DNA of 64,000 bases from Streptomyces kanamyceticus (lineage in GTDB: Bacteria; Actinomycetota; Actinomycetes; Streptomycetales; Streptomycetaceae). The notes under the pieces were generated by a model. The model saw only the letters and a program-made list of their open reading frames with translations. It searched no databases and had not been told where the DNA came from. Below are positions 1,375-63,015 of this stretch, piece by piece (the stretch's first letter is position 1; each line of letters starts with the position of its first letter). The DNA is taken from positions 62,001 to 126,000 of the forward strand of contig NZ_CP023699.1 in assembly GCF_008704495.1 (NCBI RefSeq), read 5' to 3'. The translations under genes were made by a program, and so were the position numbers.

Positions 1375-2790
1375 TCAGGAGGCGGCGTTCACCGTCGTCC
1401 GTGCCGCGTCCCGCTCCTCGTCGGTGAGCGTGGGCCCGTCCGGGAGGCCCAGCTCCCCGGCCCGCGAGAGCGCCTGCTGCACCTCGGGGTCCTGGAGGGC
1501 GTCGGCGGCTCCCGAAAGGGTGTTGACCTGCAACGCGGCGGCGCACACCAGAGGGTCGCCGAGCGCCGCGGCGCCGATCACGTCCGCCTGGCGGCGACGG
1601 TCGTCGGCGTGCCGGGTCAGCCGTGGGTCATCGGTCCTGGCGAACACGTCCGGGTAACAGATGTCCTGCGACGTACCGAGCGACCAGGGAGTGTCCACCA
1701 CCGCCCCGATCGCCCGCTGGGCCGCGCGTGCCGTGCCGGGCCGCAGAGCGGAATTCCGGAGGGTGGCGTCCAGCGTGGCCGCGCTCAGTGCCGCGGCGCT
1801 CATGCCGTGGCCGTAGACGGGGTTGAACGCGGCCACCGCGTCCCCGAGCACGACGAGGCCGTCGGGCCATTCGACGAGGCGGTCGTAGAACAGCCGCCGG
1901 TTCGCCGTGGAGCGCGACGCCTGGACTCCGGTCAGCGGCTCGGCGCGGTCGATCAGGTCGGCGATGAGCGGGTGGCGCAGGGTACGCAGATAGTCGGCGA
2001 ACCCCTCCTCGGTGGTCGGCGGTTCGCCGCCACGGGTCCCGGACAGGGTCACCATCCAGCGGCCGTCCTCGATGGGCAGCAGGATGCCGTTGCGGCCCGG
2101 CACACCCGCGCGGTGGTCGGCGTACACGCTGACGAGGGGGAACTTCTTCCTGGCCCCTTCGGGGGCGCGGAAGATCCGGGTGGCGTACGCCATGCCCGAG
2201 TCGATCACGTCCTCCTGCACCGGCGGAAGACCGAGCCCGGTGAGCCAGCGTTTCATCGGGGAGCCGCGTCCCGTGGCGTCCACGACGACGTCCGCCTCGA
2301 TCACCGACAGGGTGCCCTCCCGCCTCGGCTTGCAGGTCACACCCGTGACGGCGCGGGCGTCGCCGCGCAGCCCGAGGATGTCCATGTCGCCGAGCACGGT
2401 GACCTTGGGGTCGCGCGCCGCCTGGTCCCGGACGGTCCAGTCGAGCAGCGAACGGCTGGCCGCGATCATGAACTGGGTCTCGGGGAAGCGCTGTTGCCAG
2501 CCGTACGCGGTCAGGGAGACCAGGTCCTCGGGCAGGCCGACGCGGTGGGCGCCCGCGTCCAGGAGGCGGTCCGTGGTGCCGGGCAGCAGGGTCTCGATCA
2601 CCCGGGCGCCACCGGACCACAGGACGTGGGTGTGGCGGGCCTGCGGCACCCCGCGACGCGGGTCCGCGCCGTCGGGCAGCCGGTCGCGGTCAAGGACGGT
2701 GACGGCGTCCACGTGGCGCGCGAGCGCGGTGGCGGCGAGCATGCCCGCCATCCCCGCCCCCAGGACGACCGCCCTTGTCGTGTGGGACAT
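1375..2790 (-). CDS. FAD-dependent epoxidase, MonCI/Lsd18-like
   Basis: Flavoprotein monooxygenase of about 471 residues. Seen: N-terminal Rossmann motif AVVLGAGMAGMLAA, then GVPQARHTHVLWSGGARVIE, the middle segment VVDATGRGSPMKRWL, and the FAD-binding C-terminal motif VLGDAVAAFNPVYGHGMS. This run of motifs is the one I know from MonCI (monensin) and Lsd18 (lasalocid), which epoxidise trisubstituted alkenes of the polyene precursor before polyether ring formation. The ATG at 2790 is preferred (GAGAG 5 nt upstream); an in-frame GTG at 2802 would add four residues and has AAGGA too close to it. It is the last gene of the PKS operon, 50 nt after the thioesterase. Proposed substrates are the alkenes left by modules 1 and 3. 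Other class A flavin hydroxylases are less likely given the motifs. Confidence 0.85.
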   Translation of the reverse strand: MSHTTRAVVLGAGMAGMLAATALARHVDAVTVLDRDRLPDGADPRRGVPQARHTHVLWSGGARVIETLLPGTTDRLLDAGAHRVGLPEDLVSLTAYGWQQRFPETQFMIAASRSLLDWTVRDQAARDPKVTVLGDMDILGLRGDARAVTGVTCKPRREGTLSVIEADVVVDATGRGSPMKRWLTGLGLPPVQEDVIDSGMAYATRIFRAPEGARKKFPLVSVYADHRAGVPGRNGILLPIEDGRWMVTLSGTRGGEPPTTEEGFADYLRTLRHPLIADLIDRAEPLTGVQASRSTANRRLFYDRLVEWPDGLVVLGDAVAAFNPVYGHGMSAAALSAATLDATLRNSALRPGTARAAQRAIGAVVDTPWSLGTSQDICYPDVFARTDDPRLTRHADDRRRQADVIGAAALGDPLVCAAALQVNTLSGAADALQDPEVQQALSRAGELGLPDGPTLTDEERDAARTTVNAAS

Positions 2791-60300: not shown

Positions 60301-63015
60301 GCGTTGGAAGGCGTAGGTGGGGAGGTCGGCTTGGCGGGCATCCGAACCGGCGTACACCGCATGCCAGTTGACCGGCAGGCCACGTACGTAGCCCTCGGCG
60401 GCGGAGGTCAGGAAACGCTCCGCGCCGCCTTCGTCACGACGCAGAGTGCCTTGCGCGTACGCGGTGCTGCCGGTGTCCTCGAACGTCTCGCCCAGACCGA
60501 CGGTCAGCACCGGGTGGGCGCTGCATTCCACGAACGCCCCGAAGCCGTCGGCGAGGAGGTTCCGCACGGTGTGGTCGAAGCGGACCTCCTGGCGCAGGTT
60601 CGTGAACCAGTACTCCGCGTCCAACCCCGCCGTGTCGATCACCGATCCGGTCACCGTGGAGTAGAACGGCACCTTCGAGGCACGCGGGCGGATACCTTCC
60701 AGCGCCCTGATGACCTGTTCGCGGATGGACTCCACGTGCACCGAGTGCGAGGCGTAATCCACCGCGATCCGCCGCGCCCGCACACCGTCCGCCTCACACG
60801 CGGGCAGCAGCTCATCCAACGCGTCCGGATCACCCGACACCACCGTCGAGGAGGGGCCGTTGACCGACGCCACCGAGATCCGCTCGCCCCAGGCAGCGAT
60901 CCGCTCCCGCACGTCCTCCGCAGGCAGCGCGATCGACATCATCCCGCCCTTGCCCGACAGCTCCTCGGCAATCGCAGCGGCCCGCAGCGCCACCACCTTC
61001 GCGGCATCCTCCAACGACAACGCACCCGCCACCGCCGCCGCCGCGATCTCACCCTGGCTGTGACCGATCACCGCGGCGGGCTCGACGCCGGTCGACCGCC
61101 ACAACTCCGCGAGCGACACCATCACCGCCCACAACGCGCACTGCACCACCACGACCTCGTCCAGAGACGGCGCATCAGCAGCCGCGCGCACCACATCCAC
61201 CACGGACCAGTCCACATACGCCCGCAAAGCCGCATCACACTCAGCAAGCCGCTCCGCGAACACCGGCGACGACTCCAACAACCCCGCCGCCATCCCCACC
61301 CACTGCGACCCCTGACCCGGGAACACAAACACCACCCGACCCGGCTCAGCAGCCGCGACACCACTCACCACACCAGCCGCAACCTCACCCCGCTCCAAGG
61401 CCGCAAGCCCCGCCAACGCACCCGCACGATCCGCCGCCAGCACCACACCCCGGTGATCCAGCACCGCACGCGACGCCACCAACGAAAGACCCACATCCGC
61501 AACCGAAAGCTCCGACCGCTCCCCCACGAACGCAGCCAAACGCCCCGCCTGCGCCCGCAGTCCCTTCCGGCCCTTGCCGGAGATCACCCAGGGCAGGAGG
61601 TGGGGGGTGGGTTCGAGTGCCGGTGCCTGTTCGGGTGCGGACGGTTCGGGCGCGGGCCAGTCGGACACCACCACATGGCAGTTGGTGCCACCCATGCCGA
61701 AGGCGGAGACACCGGCGAGCAGTGGGTTCTCGGACCGCGGCCAGGGCGACGTGGTCCGCTGGACGCGCAGGTTGAGCTCGTCGAGGGGGATGTCGGGGTT
61801 CGGCGTCTCGAAGTTGAGGCTCGGGGGCAGTGCGCGGCCCTTGATGCTGAGGATGACCTTGAGCAGGCCCGCGATTCCGGCCGCGCCCTCCAGATGGCCC
61901 ACGTTGGTCTTCACGGAGCCGACCGCGAGGGGGCTTCCGGGTTCTCGGGCGGAGCCGATGACGGCGCCGAGCGCGGCGGCCTCGATGGGGTCGCCGACCT
62001 TGGTTCCCGTGCCGTGCAGTTCCACGTACTGGATCTCGTCGGGGGCGACGCCGGCCCGCTCGTGGGCCAGGCGCAGCACCTCCTCCTGGGCGAGGCGGTG
62101 CGGGGTGGTGAGCGAGCTGCCGCCGCCGTCGTTGTTGACCGCGCTGCCGCGCAGGACACAGTGGATCCGGTCGCCGTCGGCGAGGGCCCGGGAGAGTCGC
62201 TTCAGGAGGACGACCGCGCCGCCTTCGCCCCGGACGTATCCGTTCGCGCGGGCGTCGAAGGTGTAGCAGCGGCCGTCGGCGGAGAGGGCGCCGAAGCGGG
62301 CGATGCGGTCGGTGGTCTCCGGGATCAGGTTGAGGTTGACACCGCCGGCGAGGGCGACGGTGCTCTCGCCGGAGCGCAGGCTCTCACAGGCGAGGTGGAC
62401 GGAGACCAGTGAGGACGACTGCCCGGTGTCCAGCGTCATGCTGGGGCCGCGCAGCCCGAGCACGTACGAGACGCGGTTCGCGATCATGCTGCGGTGCAGG
62501 CCGGTCATCGCGTGCGGGCTGCCGCTGCCCGCGCCGAGCCGGGCGGCCAGGGCGGCGTAGTCGTCGCCGATGACGCCGACGAAGACACCGGCCCGGTGGC
62601 CGGTCAGGGCCTGGGGGGTGAGACCGGCTTGTTCCAGGGCCTCCCAGCCGAGTTCGAGCATGAGGCGTTGCTGGGGGTCCATGAAGATCGCTTCGCGTGG
62701 CGAGACGCCGAAGAAGCCCGGGTCGAAGCGTTCGATCTGGTCGACGTCGAGGCGGGCTCCGTGCCGTGTGCGCCCGGTGGCATCGGGCGCGTCAGGGGTC
62801 TCGTGGGGTTCTTCGCCGGTGAACTCCCAGCGGTCGCGCGGCTCTTCGGTGATCGCGTGCTGCCCGTCGCGCAGGAGTTCCCAGAACGCCCCCGGGTCCG
62901 GAGCTCCGGGCAGGCGGCAGGAGAGGCCGATGACCGCTACGGGCTCGACCGGGCCGGTGGGCTCACCGTCGGGCCGGGCCGAGAGAACCTTCTGAGCCTT
63001 CTTGTCCGCCAACAC
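47834..63015 (-). CDS. PKS1: loading module plus modules 1 and 2, four apparent frameshifts
   Basis: First subunit, 5061 residues after correction. Domain order: KSQ-AT-ACP, KS-AT-DH-KR-ACP, KS-AT-DH-ER-KR-ACP, docking tail [14 protein letters not shown]. There is no N-terminal docking helix, as expected for a first subunit. The start is uncertain: GTG 63015 has GGGGAG 11 nt upstream; an in-frame TTG at 63072 would add 19 residues but has no ribosome-binding site. One base is missing at each of 54889-54891 (after KR1), 49864-49865 and 49542-49544 (both in ER2) and 48118-48122 (ACP2). With four bases restored, the length is divisible by three and each protein motif continues across the site; three of the sites have an uninterrupted sister copy elsewhere in the window for comparison. 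I therefore treat this as one gene, not five fragments. Confidence 0.88.
48770..49790 (-). repeat. KR2/ER2 copy of a near-identical repeat
   Basis: Partner of 36700-37720. The frame break at 49542-49544 is visible by comparison: the partner has CCCC where this copy has CCC. Confidence 0.8.
51950..54560 (-). repeat. Module 1/2 copy of a long near-identical repeat
   Basis: Partner of 39750-42500. The shared DNA spans the ACP-to-KS linker, much of the KS and most of the AT, and differs by scattered substitutions and by one extra 6-bp unit in the linker. Confidence 0.8.
54353..54376 (-). repeat. Hexanucleotide repeat in the ACP1-KS2 linker
   Basis: Four units (one AGAAAC, three AGAAGC) encode the Ser-Ala linker between modules 1 and 2, one unit longer than the module 3/4 copy. 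Confidence 0.7.
54440..59870 (-). other. Module 1 of PKS1: KS-AT(ethylmalonyl)-DH-KR-ACP
   Basis: KS from about 59857 (Cys 59338-59340). AT from about 58225 with VASH (57634-57645), predicting ethylmalonyl-CoA. DH with [10 protein letters not shown] (His 56989-56991) and LLDAALHAL, fully intact, so an ethyl-substituted C20=C21 alkene is expected. KR with TGGTGALGG near 55450-55490, LDD (B-type) and intact catalytic residues. ACP Ser 54539-54541. A missing base at 54889-54891 lies between KR and ACP. Confidence 0.88.
59960..63015 (-). other. Loading module of PKS1: KSQ-AT(methylmalonyl)-ACP
   Basis: The KS-like domain (about 62945-61665) carries Gln in place of the active-site Cys: DTGQSSSLV, Gln codon 62419-62421. 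KSQ domains decarboxylate the acyl-ACP to prime the line. AT (about 61335-60290) has GHSQGE and YASH (60745-60756), so methylmalonyl-CoA becomes a propionyl starter. ACP Ser 60031-60033 in GFDSHLSV. Confidence 0.92.

Follow-up and report, generated by a model that had tools for sequence, protein, structure and literature searches.

Two polyether pathways, that of lasalocid (las/lsd, Streptomyces lasalocidi), whose product has an aromatic acid end, and that of monensin, are the points of comparison for the polyketide synthase (PKS) gene cluster of Streptomyces kanamyceticus described here. In both, a flavin epoxidase is accompanied by ring-closing epoxide hydrolases (EH) of the MonB/Lsd19 family. 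According to an excerpt of PMC8827043, Lsd19A, the first domain of Lsd19, performs the 5-exo step and Lsd19B, the second, the 6-endo step, isolasalocid arises without Lsd19, and the monensin pathway has three epoxides and two hydrolases, of which MonBI alone is inactive and MonBII weakly active. Lysocellin, described in 1975, has S. cacaoi var. asoensis as its source (excerpt of PMC9144361), ferensimycin A has the formula C34H60O10 (excerpt of PMC7918646), and the reference list of PMC10094535 contains a title by Evans on the "lysocellin family ... ferensimycin B". In the open-access literature searched, we found no biosynthetic cluster for lysocellin or ferensimycin. We take the lysocellin skeleton to have a keto group at C3, an unsubstituted C2, a ketone at C11 and two alkenes four carbons apart, and the compound to be a bis-tetrahydrofuran.

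The stretch analysed (the window) comprises 64,000 nucleotides and corresponds to C1:62001-126000 of the single-contig 10.13-Mb genome of S. kanamyceticus; plain positions refer to the window and those marked C1 to the contig. We consider it, with good confidence, to be the core of a lysocellin/ferensimycin-type polyether ionophore gene cluster extending over approximately C1:58.6-133.4 kb. This cluster and a largely syntenic one in Streptomyces longwoodensis DSM 41677 are candidate lysocellin/ferensimycin biosynthetic clusters. PKS domains, namely ketosynthase (KS), acyltransferase (AT), dehydratase (DH), enoylreductase (ER), ketoreductase (KR), acyl carrier protein (ACP) and thioesterase (TE), were identified with Pfam on frame pieces and by active-site motifs, and frames were checked against protein pieces of S. 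longwoodensis. On the minus strand, the PKS extends from 63072 to 3618; next come a type II thioesterase and then the epoxidase (2802-1378). The features on which the assignment rests are:

59893..63072, minus strand: loading unit, KSQ-AT(YASH)-ACP, with DTGQSS at 62430 (Pfam KS/AT/PP-binding)
54808..59892, minus strand: module 1, KS-AT(VASH)-DH-KR, its ACP in the next frame piece (Pfam, AT motif, intact DH and KR motifs)
47896..54967, minus strand: ACP1 and module 2, KS-AT(YASH)-DH-ER-KR-ACP, divided over two pieces (Pfam, 49778-54967 and 47896-49542)
41943..47774, minus strand: module 3, docking-KS-AT(YASH)-DH-KR-ACP (Pfam; DH alignment)
35980..42129, minus strand: module 4, KS-AT(YASH)-DH-ER-KR-ACP, its frame broken where the KS begins (Pfam, KS match beginning at profile position 52; frame scan)
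31213..35979, minus strand: module 5, KS-AT(VASH)-KR, ACP5 lying over two frames at about 31.4 kb (Pfam without PP-binding; ACP5 frames)
25245..31031, minus strand: module 6, KS-AT(YASH)-DH-KR-ACP, KS motif DAACSS (Pfam; KR6 comparison)
20084..25144, minus strand: module 7, KS-AT(YASH)-KR-ACP, predicted C9 hydroxyl (Pfam, KR active residues)
14410..20088, minus strand: module 8, KS-AT(YASH)-DH(degenerate)-KR-ACP, predicted C7 hydroxyl (Pfam; DH8 motif)
7746..14348, minus strand: module 9, KS-AT(VASH, exchanged)-DH(decayed)-ER(decayed)-KR(Ser-to-Ala)-ACP, predicted ethyl at C4 and oxygen at C5 (Pfam, motifs)
11709..12548, minus strand: exchanged AT block, module 9 residues 601-880 (sliding comparison, AT identity matrix)
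3618..7680, minus strand: module 10, docking-KS-AT(HAFH)-ACP-TE (Pfam, docking domain at C1:69598-69681, frame scan)
1378..2802, minus strand: Lsd18/LasC-type flavin epoxidase (PDB matches, LasC identity, active-site residues)
C1:126582-127028, plus strand, 0.6 kb past the right window edge: MonB/Lsd19-type EH, 149 residues (PDB matches)

The first-pass annotation of this DNA had claimed a KSQ/propionyl start, ten extension modules, alkene-forming modules 1 and 3, a hydroxyl from module 5, a ketone from module 6 and a specific branch pattern, and all of these claims, with the coordinates given, are borne out by the domain analysis: the loading unit has the KSQ motif and a YASH AT, ten modules are encoded by seven PKS genes and end in KS-AT-ACP-TE, modules 1 and 3 are of the DH-KR type (with the caveat of an altered DH3 motif), the reductive part of module 5 is a KR only, and the catalytic Tyr of KR6 is replaced by Phe. 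The AT motifs VASH, HAFH and YASH denote ethylmalonyl, malonyl and methylmalonyl specificity, respectively. VASH is present in modules 1, 5 and 9, HAFH in module 10 and YASH in the six other extension modules as well as in the loading AT; as to reduction, modules 2 and 4 contain DH-ER-KR, modules 1 and 3 DH-KR, and modules 5 and 7 only KR. The branch pattern and the formula of the product were deduced from these AT motifs and reductive domains. The loading unit would take up methylmalonyl and decarboxylate it to the propionyl starter, which with ten extenders would give a 23-carbon chain with ethyls at C4, C12 and C20 and methyls at C6, C8, C10, C14, C16 and C18. Module 1 is predicted to introduce the C20 ethyl and the C20=C21 alkene, module 3 the C16 methyl and the C16=C17 alkene, and module 5 to give the C12 ethyl and the C13 hydroxyl, the putative ring nucleophile. 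Since KR6 lacks the catalytic Tyr in both species (Leu in the S. longwoodensis counterpart), a ketone is expected at C11 in both products. The DH8 motif has lost its Pro here and in S. longwoodensis, in line with the proposed C7 hydroxyl. Module 10, whose docking domain and KS start sit in another frame, has no KR and is predicted to leave a C3 ketone and an unsubstituted C2, and to release the chain by its TE. The predicted carbon skeleton thus matches the lysocellin skeleton given above, through the HAFH AT and missing KR of module 10, the Tyr-less KR6 and the DH-KR modules 1 and 3. A side feature of module 3 is a Gly-to-Asp change in the DH motif (DH3, 44034-44903), intact in the S. longwoodensis counterpart.

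In the proposed pathway, the Lsd18-type flavoenzyme would epoxidise the C16=C17 and C20=C21 alkenes, and the single MonB/Lsd19-family EH would steer the attack of the C13 hydroxyl, most likely yielding two tetrahydrofurans through successive 5-exo closures; release of the acid would fall to the terminal TE, and the C7 hydroxyl would form a hemiketal with the C3 ketone. Domain order, substrate motifs, the missing Tyr of KR6, enzyme families and synteny are read directly from sequence; ring sizes, the C5 hydroxyl, the hemiketal and production itself are inferred. The product so predicted, C35H62O10 (642.434; [M+Na]+ 665.42), would be the C4-ethyl homologue of the C34H60O10 predicted from the S. 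longwoodensis cluster by carbon count, a formula identical to that of ferensimycin A; the one-carbon difference is predicted because AT9 is ethylmalonyl-type here and methylmalonyl-type there. Only tentatively, and at somewhat less than even confidence, do we propose the following as a joint statement: that a single EH of the Lsd19B/MonBI branch closes both tetrahydrofurans, that the C4 ethyl arose through a natural exchange of the module 9 AT, and that KR9 works without its catalytic Ser. The cluster would thus combine a single-domain difference that predicts a one-carbon change of product with a ring-closing enzyme lacking its usual partner.

The likeness to lysocellin/ferensimycin suggested by the first-pass annotation gained support from the cluster in S. 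longwoodensis, which is largely syntenic, and from an S. asoensis epoxidase 86% identical to that of the window. Of 256 related loci, 80 were kept, with the S. longwoodensis DSM 41677 locus (84%) and the S. milbemycinicus locus (83%) nearest. An 80-kb region of S. longwoodensis DSM 41677 has the same module order and nearly the same gene order, and shares the epoxidase, the single EH, the cytochrome P450, the regulator and the transporter; identities are 85% for the P450, 86% for the EH, 72% for the 3-hydroxyacyl-CoA dehydrogenase, 56% for the LAL regulator, 68% for KASIII and, by tblastn, 81% for the major facilitator superfamily (MFS) exporter, 71% for the gene beside it and 67% for the outer thioesterase, with 60-80% by piece for the crotonyl-CoA carboxylase/reductase. 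The S. kanamyceticus cluster differs in its ethylmalonyl-type AT9, its decayed DH9 and ER9, its inverted KASIII gene and its frame breaks. In S. asoensis the epoxidase alone was seen; we read S. asoensis and S. cacaoi var. asoensis as one organism, an identity that a taxonomy look-up does not show. S. longwoodensis itself is presumably a lysocellin producer, and no paper naming both S. longwoodensis and lysocellin was found in the literature searched. An epoxidase record named S. longwoodensis (P0033) is 98.7% identical to LasC, while DSM 41677 carries the lysocellin-type cluster; these are different strains under one species name and, because P0033 is LasC-like, the species name alone cannot carry the lysocellin link. 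The S. milbemycinicus cluster with a lone EH (G393:C471; L151, 14241 and 11160) has a KSQ loading unit with a VASH AT, pointing to a butyryl starter and a different product.

The epoxidase had been called MonCI-like: the assignment to the polyether epoxidase family stands, but the enzyme is nearer to Lsd18/LasC (593 bits against PDB entries) than to the more distant MonCI (460 bits). With LasC it shares 60.1% identity over 459 residues. The first-pass annotation had proposed grouping with aromatic hydroxylases as a refuting outcome; all nine PDB matches at E<=1e-3 are polyether epoxidases (three LasC/Lsd18, six MonCI) and none is an aromatic hydroxylase, so that this identity was ruled out. 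The residues R51, H71, W74, Y218 and V342 of Lsd18 are retained, and of the seven contacts to a substrate analogue (residue roles as in an excerpt of PMC12144862) W74, Y218 and V342 are kept and four are changed (A70T, I72V, H239Y and V252I). The same four changes are found in the relatives from S. asoensis, Streptomyces sp. B1866 and S. olivoreticuli and in P0020. Our genus sample comprised 392 Streptomyces genomes, that of S. kanamyceticus (G000) included; epoxidase relatives at E<=1e-100 are present in 200 of these, the best outside S. kanamyceticus being 57-58% identical. Among the best 120 of 453 relatives in the protein set, the best named ones are from S. asoensis (86%), Streptomyces sp. 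B1866 (85%) and S. olivoreticuli (81%), and a 99% identical entry, P0014, has no source, like the proteins encoded by the window itself. Plasmid relatives amount to 147 records, all below 60% identity.

No EH is present among the annotated genes of the window. The cluster EH beyond its right edge was recognised by position and then confirmed against PDB: over the own genome, the Pfam LEH family gave one match, at 1.79 Mb, which is not the cluster EH, and SnoaL_2 gave 30 matches, the cluster EH appearing only below the family cut-off. It scores 190 bits to LasB/Lsd19, 119 to Lsd19B, 60-65 to Lsd19A and 122 to MonBI/MonBII, and retains both acids, which are catalytic in these enzymes. Its relatives are 86% (S. 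longwoodensis), 82% (S. bingchenggensis) and 79% (S. blastmyceticus) identical. Matches at E<=1e-12 occur in 25 of the 392 genus-sample genomes (own included), the next best being 47-49% identical; at E<=1e-45, in draws of 395 relatives each of S. kanamyceticus and S. longwoodensis, which look largely like the same genomes as the genus sample, only the centre genome matched (1/395 each).

Whereas Lsd19 comprises two domains and the monensin pathway two hydrolases, there is here one domain in one gene, for two predicted epoxides. EH matches were found in 46 of 102 loci scanned (L045-L146, many of them near-duplicates), 42 with two or more and four with one; the latter are L144, L145 and L146, 3.4-kb loci of the clade of this cluster, and L073. 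With a profile of nine second-copy hydrolases, we searched eight whole genomes for a partner of the A half. None was found genome-wide in S. kanamyceticus, S. longwoodensis DSM 41677 (G392) or CBMA29 (G394), where only two of the three genomes gave matches beyond the lone EH, of at most 36 bits; in S. milbemycinicus (G393), one further EH (127 bits) is present, and its contig also carries a second epoxidase. The control genomes G051, G159, G395 (S. bambusae) and G397 all contain adjacent EH pairs, G051 and G397 having themselves supplied profile rows. Lasalocid, monensin and the majority of the loci examined have paired A and B hydrolase domains; this pairing is not seen here, and the EH seems, from these searches, to be a lone B-branch protein without an A-branch (5-exo) partner.

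The branch of this EH bears directly on ring size. In the EH tree, it groups with Lsd19B and MonBI, and Lsd19A and MonBII fall in the other half; the deep split is modestly supported and the MonBII row incomplete. Both this position and the higher score to Lsd19B than to Lsd19A would suit a lasalocid-like course, in which the lone EH closes the terminal ring in the 6-endo mode and a tetrahydrofuran and a tetrahydropyran result, as Lsd19B does the 6-endo and Lsd19A the 5-exo step (excerpt of PMC8827043). Yet MonBI lies in the same half and the monensin pathway is discussed among the tetrahydrofuran-forming ones (same excerpt), so that the branch leaves ring size unfixed. The closest clusters are of the lysocellin type, and lysocellin is presumably a bis-tetrahydrofuran; because of this link we favour two tetrahydrofurans and regard a tetrahydropyran as quite improbable. 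A further difference from lasalocid is that a KR is missing from the last module and an aromatic acid end is not predicted.

In module 9, the AT domain appears to have been exchanged (ACYLTRANSFERASE): AT9 is 82% identical to AT1 of the same cluster and 58% to AT9 of S. longwoodensis, when the other ten orthologous AT pairs of these two clusters are 69-81% identical. In 40-residue steps, residues 601-880 are nearer to AT1 in 7/7 steps (72-95%, vs 30-62% to S. longwoodensis AT9), and residues 41-440 (KS) resemble S. longwoodensis more than module 1 in 7/10. A YASH motif is found in AT9 of S. longwoodensis and in the AT of that S. milbemycinicus module whose KR has the KR9 signature; since both are methylmalonyl-type, the ethylmalonyl-type AT9 is probably derived, a weak argument over three lineages. 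Such an exchange would reveal domain boundaries tolerated by evolution. A search for further module 9 orthologues yielded none among the best 120 of 5505 proteins, those present being scored up by repeated modules. Apart from this exchange, five methylmalonyl-type ATs (loading, 61065; module 2, 52471; module 3, 45740; module 4, 40389; module 6, 28883) are mutually 89-94% identical and 76-79% identical to their S. longwoodensis counterparts, a pattern that, judged from these identities, is one of homogenisation within the cluster.

The reductive domains of module 9 bear on the oxidation level at C5. In DH9 the His is gone and a second motif is partly lost, and ER9 lacks the GGVG motif; identities to S. 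longwoodensis are 47% for DH9 and 54% for ER9, compared with 63-71% for DH1-4, 66% for DH8, 47% for DH6 and 84% for ER4. By motifs, DH9 and ER9 look nearly intact in S. longwoodensis, and in the S. milbemycinicus module an ER is absent by alignment. The catalytic Ser of KR9 is replaced by Ala (SAGAG) in the window, in S. longwoodensis and in the matching S. milbemycinicus module, and if this KR is inactive C5 would be a ketone and the product C35H60O10; alternatively, the P450, which is conserved in S. longwoodensis (in S. milbemycinicus a P450 haem motif adjoins the EH), may add a hydroxyl (C35H62O11). KR9 does retain the Tyr, the Asn and the cofactor motif; its identity with the S. longwoodensis domain is 70%. 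We dropped an argument from this identity for constraint on KR9: the Tyr-less KR6 is nearly as conserved (68%), so that KR9 identity cannot settle the state of C5. A C5 hydroxyl thus remains our reading for S. kanamyceticus, and another oxidation level seems to us unlikely.

As assembled, the PKS and thioesterase genes of the window contain about seven frame breaks relative to the S. longwoodensis protein pieces (KR1/ACP1, 54.8-55.0 kb; ER2, which spans two, 49.5-49.9 kb; KS4 start, about 42.0 kb; ACP5, about 31.4 kb; KS10 start, 7.3-7.5 kb; type II TE, 3.2-3.3 kb). The crotonyl-CoA reductase gene matches in three frames, that is with about two more breaks, while its S. longwoodensis counterpart has an open frame and scores above the cut-off. 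Homopolymers of at least six (G, C, A, T) were considered as the site of the breaks and were absent from the six window sites examined. One explanation is that the breaks are real and the cluster is decaying, so that the strain no longer makes a polyether. Seven breaks in about 60 kb, about two more in a gene that is not a repeated PKS module, the missing homopolymers, an unbroken PKS of about 88 kb elsewhere in the genome (C1:869754-957906), the decay of DH9/ER9 and the altered DH3 motif all fit this view. Against it, another PKS of the genome, at 8.41-8.44 Mb, is fragmented too, a hint of local errors in the assembly; an apparent change of frame is also present in the S. longwoodensis assembly, between ACP1 and KS2; and the genes for the EH, epoxidase, P450, MFS, dehydrogenase, KASIII and regulator all have open frames. 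We regard decay as rather unlikely; production by this strain is nonetheless unproven, because the cluster is frame-broken as assembled. The fragmented locus is a type I PKS (C1:8408729-8438214; L158, L159) whose frames are broken into overlapping pieces.

The lysocellin-type assignment has to be weighed against several points: the window and reductase breaks beside an intact 88-kb PKS; the altered DH3 motif in an alkene-forming module; a KR9 without its catalytic Ser, so that C5 could be a ketone; the state of DH9 and ER9 in S. longwoodensis, which, judged by motifs, fits a C5 hydroxyl there only with a further assumption; an EH that belongs with Lsd19B/MonBI rather than with the 5-exo Lsd19A, so that a tetrahydropyran may form; the inverted KASIII gene; the merely presumed lysocellin production by S. 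longwoodensis and the divided use of that species name; and a conserved P450 that has no task in the predicted product, which needs none.

The genes flanking the PKS and epoxidase complete the cluster. To the left of the epoxidase lie the MFS exporter, a neighbour gene for which no family match above cut-off was found, a second type II thioesterase and the crotonyl-CoA carboxylase/reductase gene, whose product would provide ethylmalonyl-CoA to the three VASH ATs. To the right of the PKS, on the plus strand, are the P450, the EH and a two-domain 3-hydroxyacyl-CoA dehydrogenase, and beyond these a LAL-type (AAA/LuxR) regulator gene in minus orientation and a FabH-like ketosynthase (KASIII) gene in plus orientation. 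Their remaining coordinates are:

2..706, minus strand: start of the MFS efflux transporter, running left to C1:61132 (Pfam MFS_1, NCBIfam TIGR00711 above cut-off, tblastn)
2844..3717, minus strand: type II thioesterase in two frame pieces (Pfam thioesterase on 2844-3353; tblastn, two frames)
63262..64000, plus strand: start of the cytochrome P450, running past the window to C1:126521 (Pfam p450, tblastn, motifs)
C1:60244-61026: second (outer) type II thioesterase, open frame
C1:58613-59966: crotonyl-CoA carboxylase/reductase (TIGR01751), in frame pieces

The type II thioesterase next to the epoxidase is 71-72% identical to its S. longwoodensis counterpart (tblastn). The I-helix of cytochromes P450 normally carries an acid at a position that, in the AGHITT motif found both in the window and in S. 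longwoodensis, is occupied by Ile.

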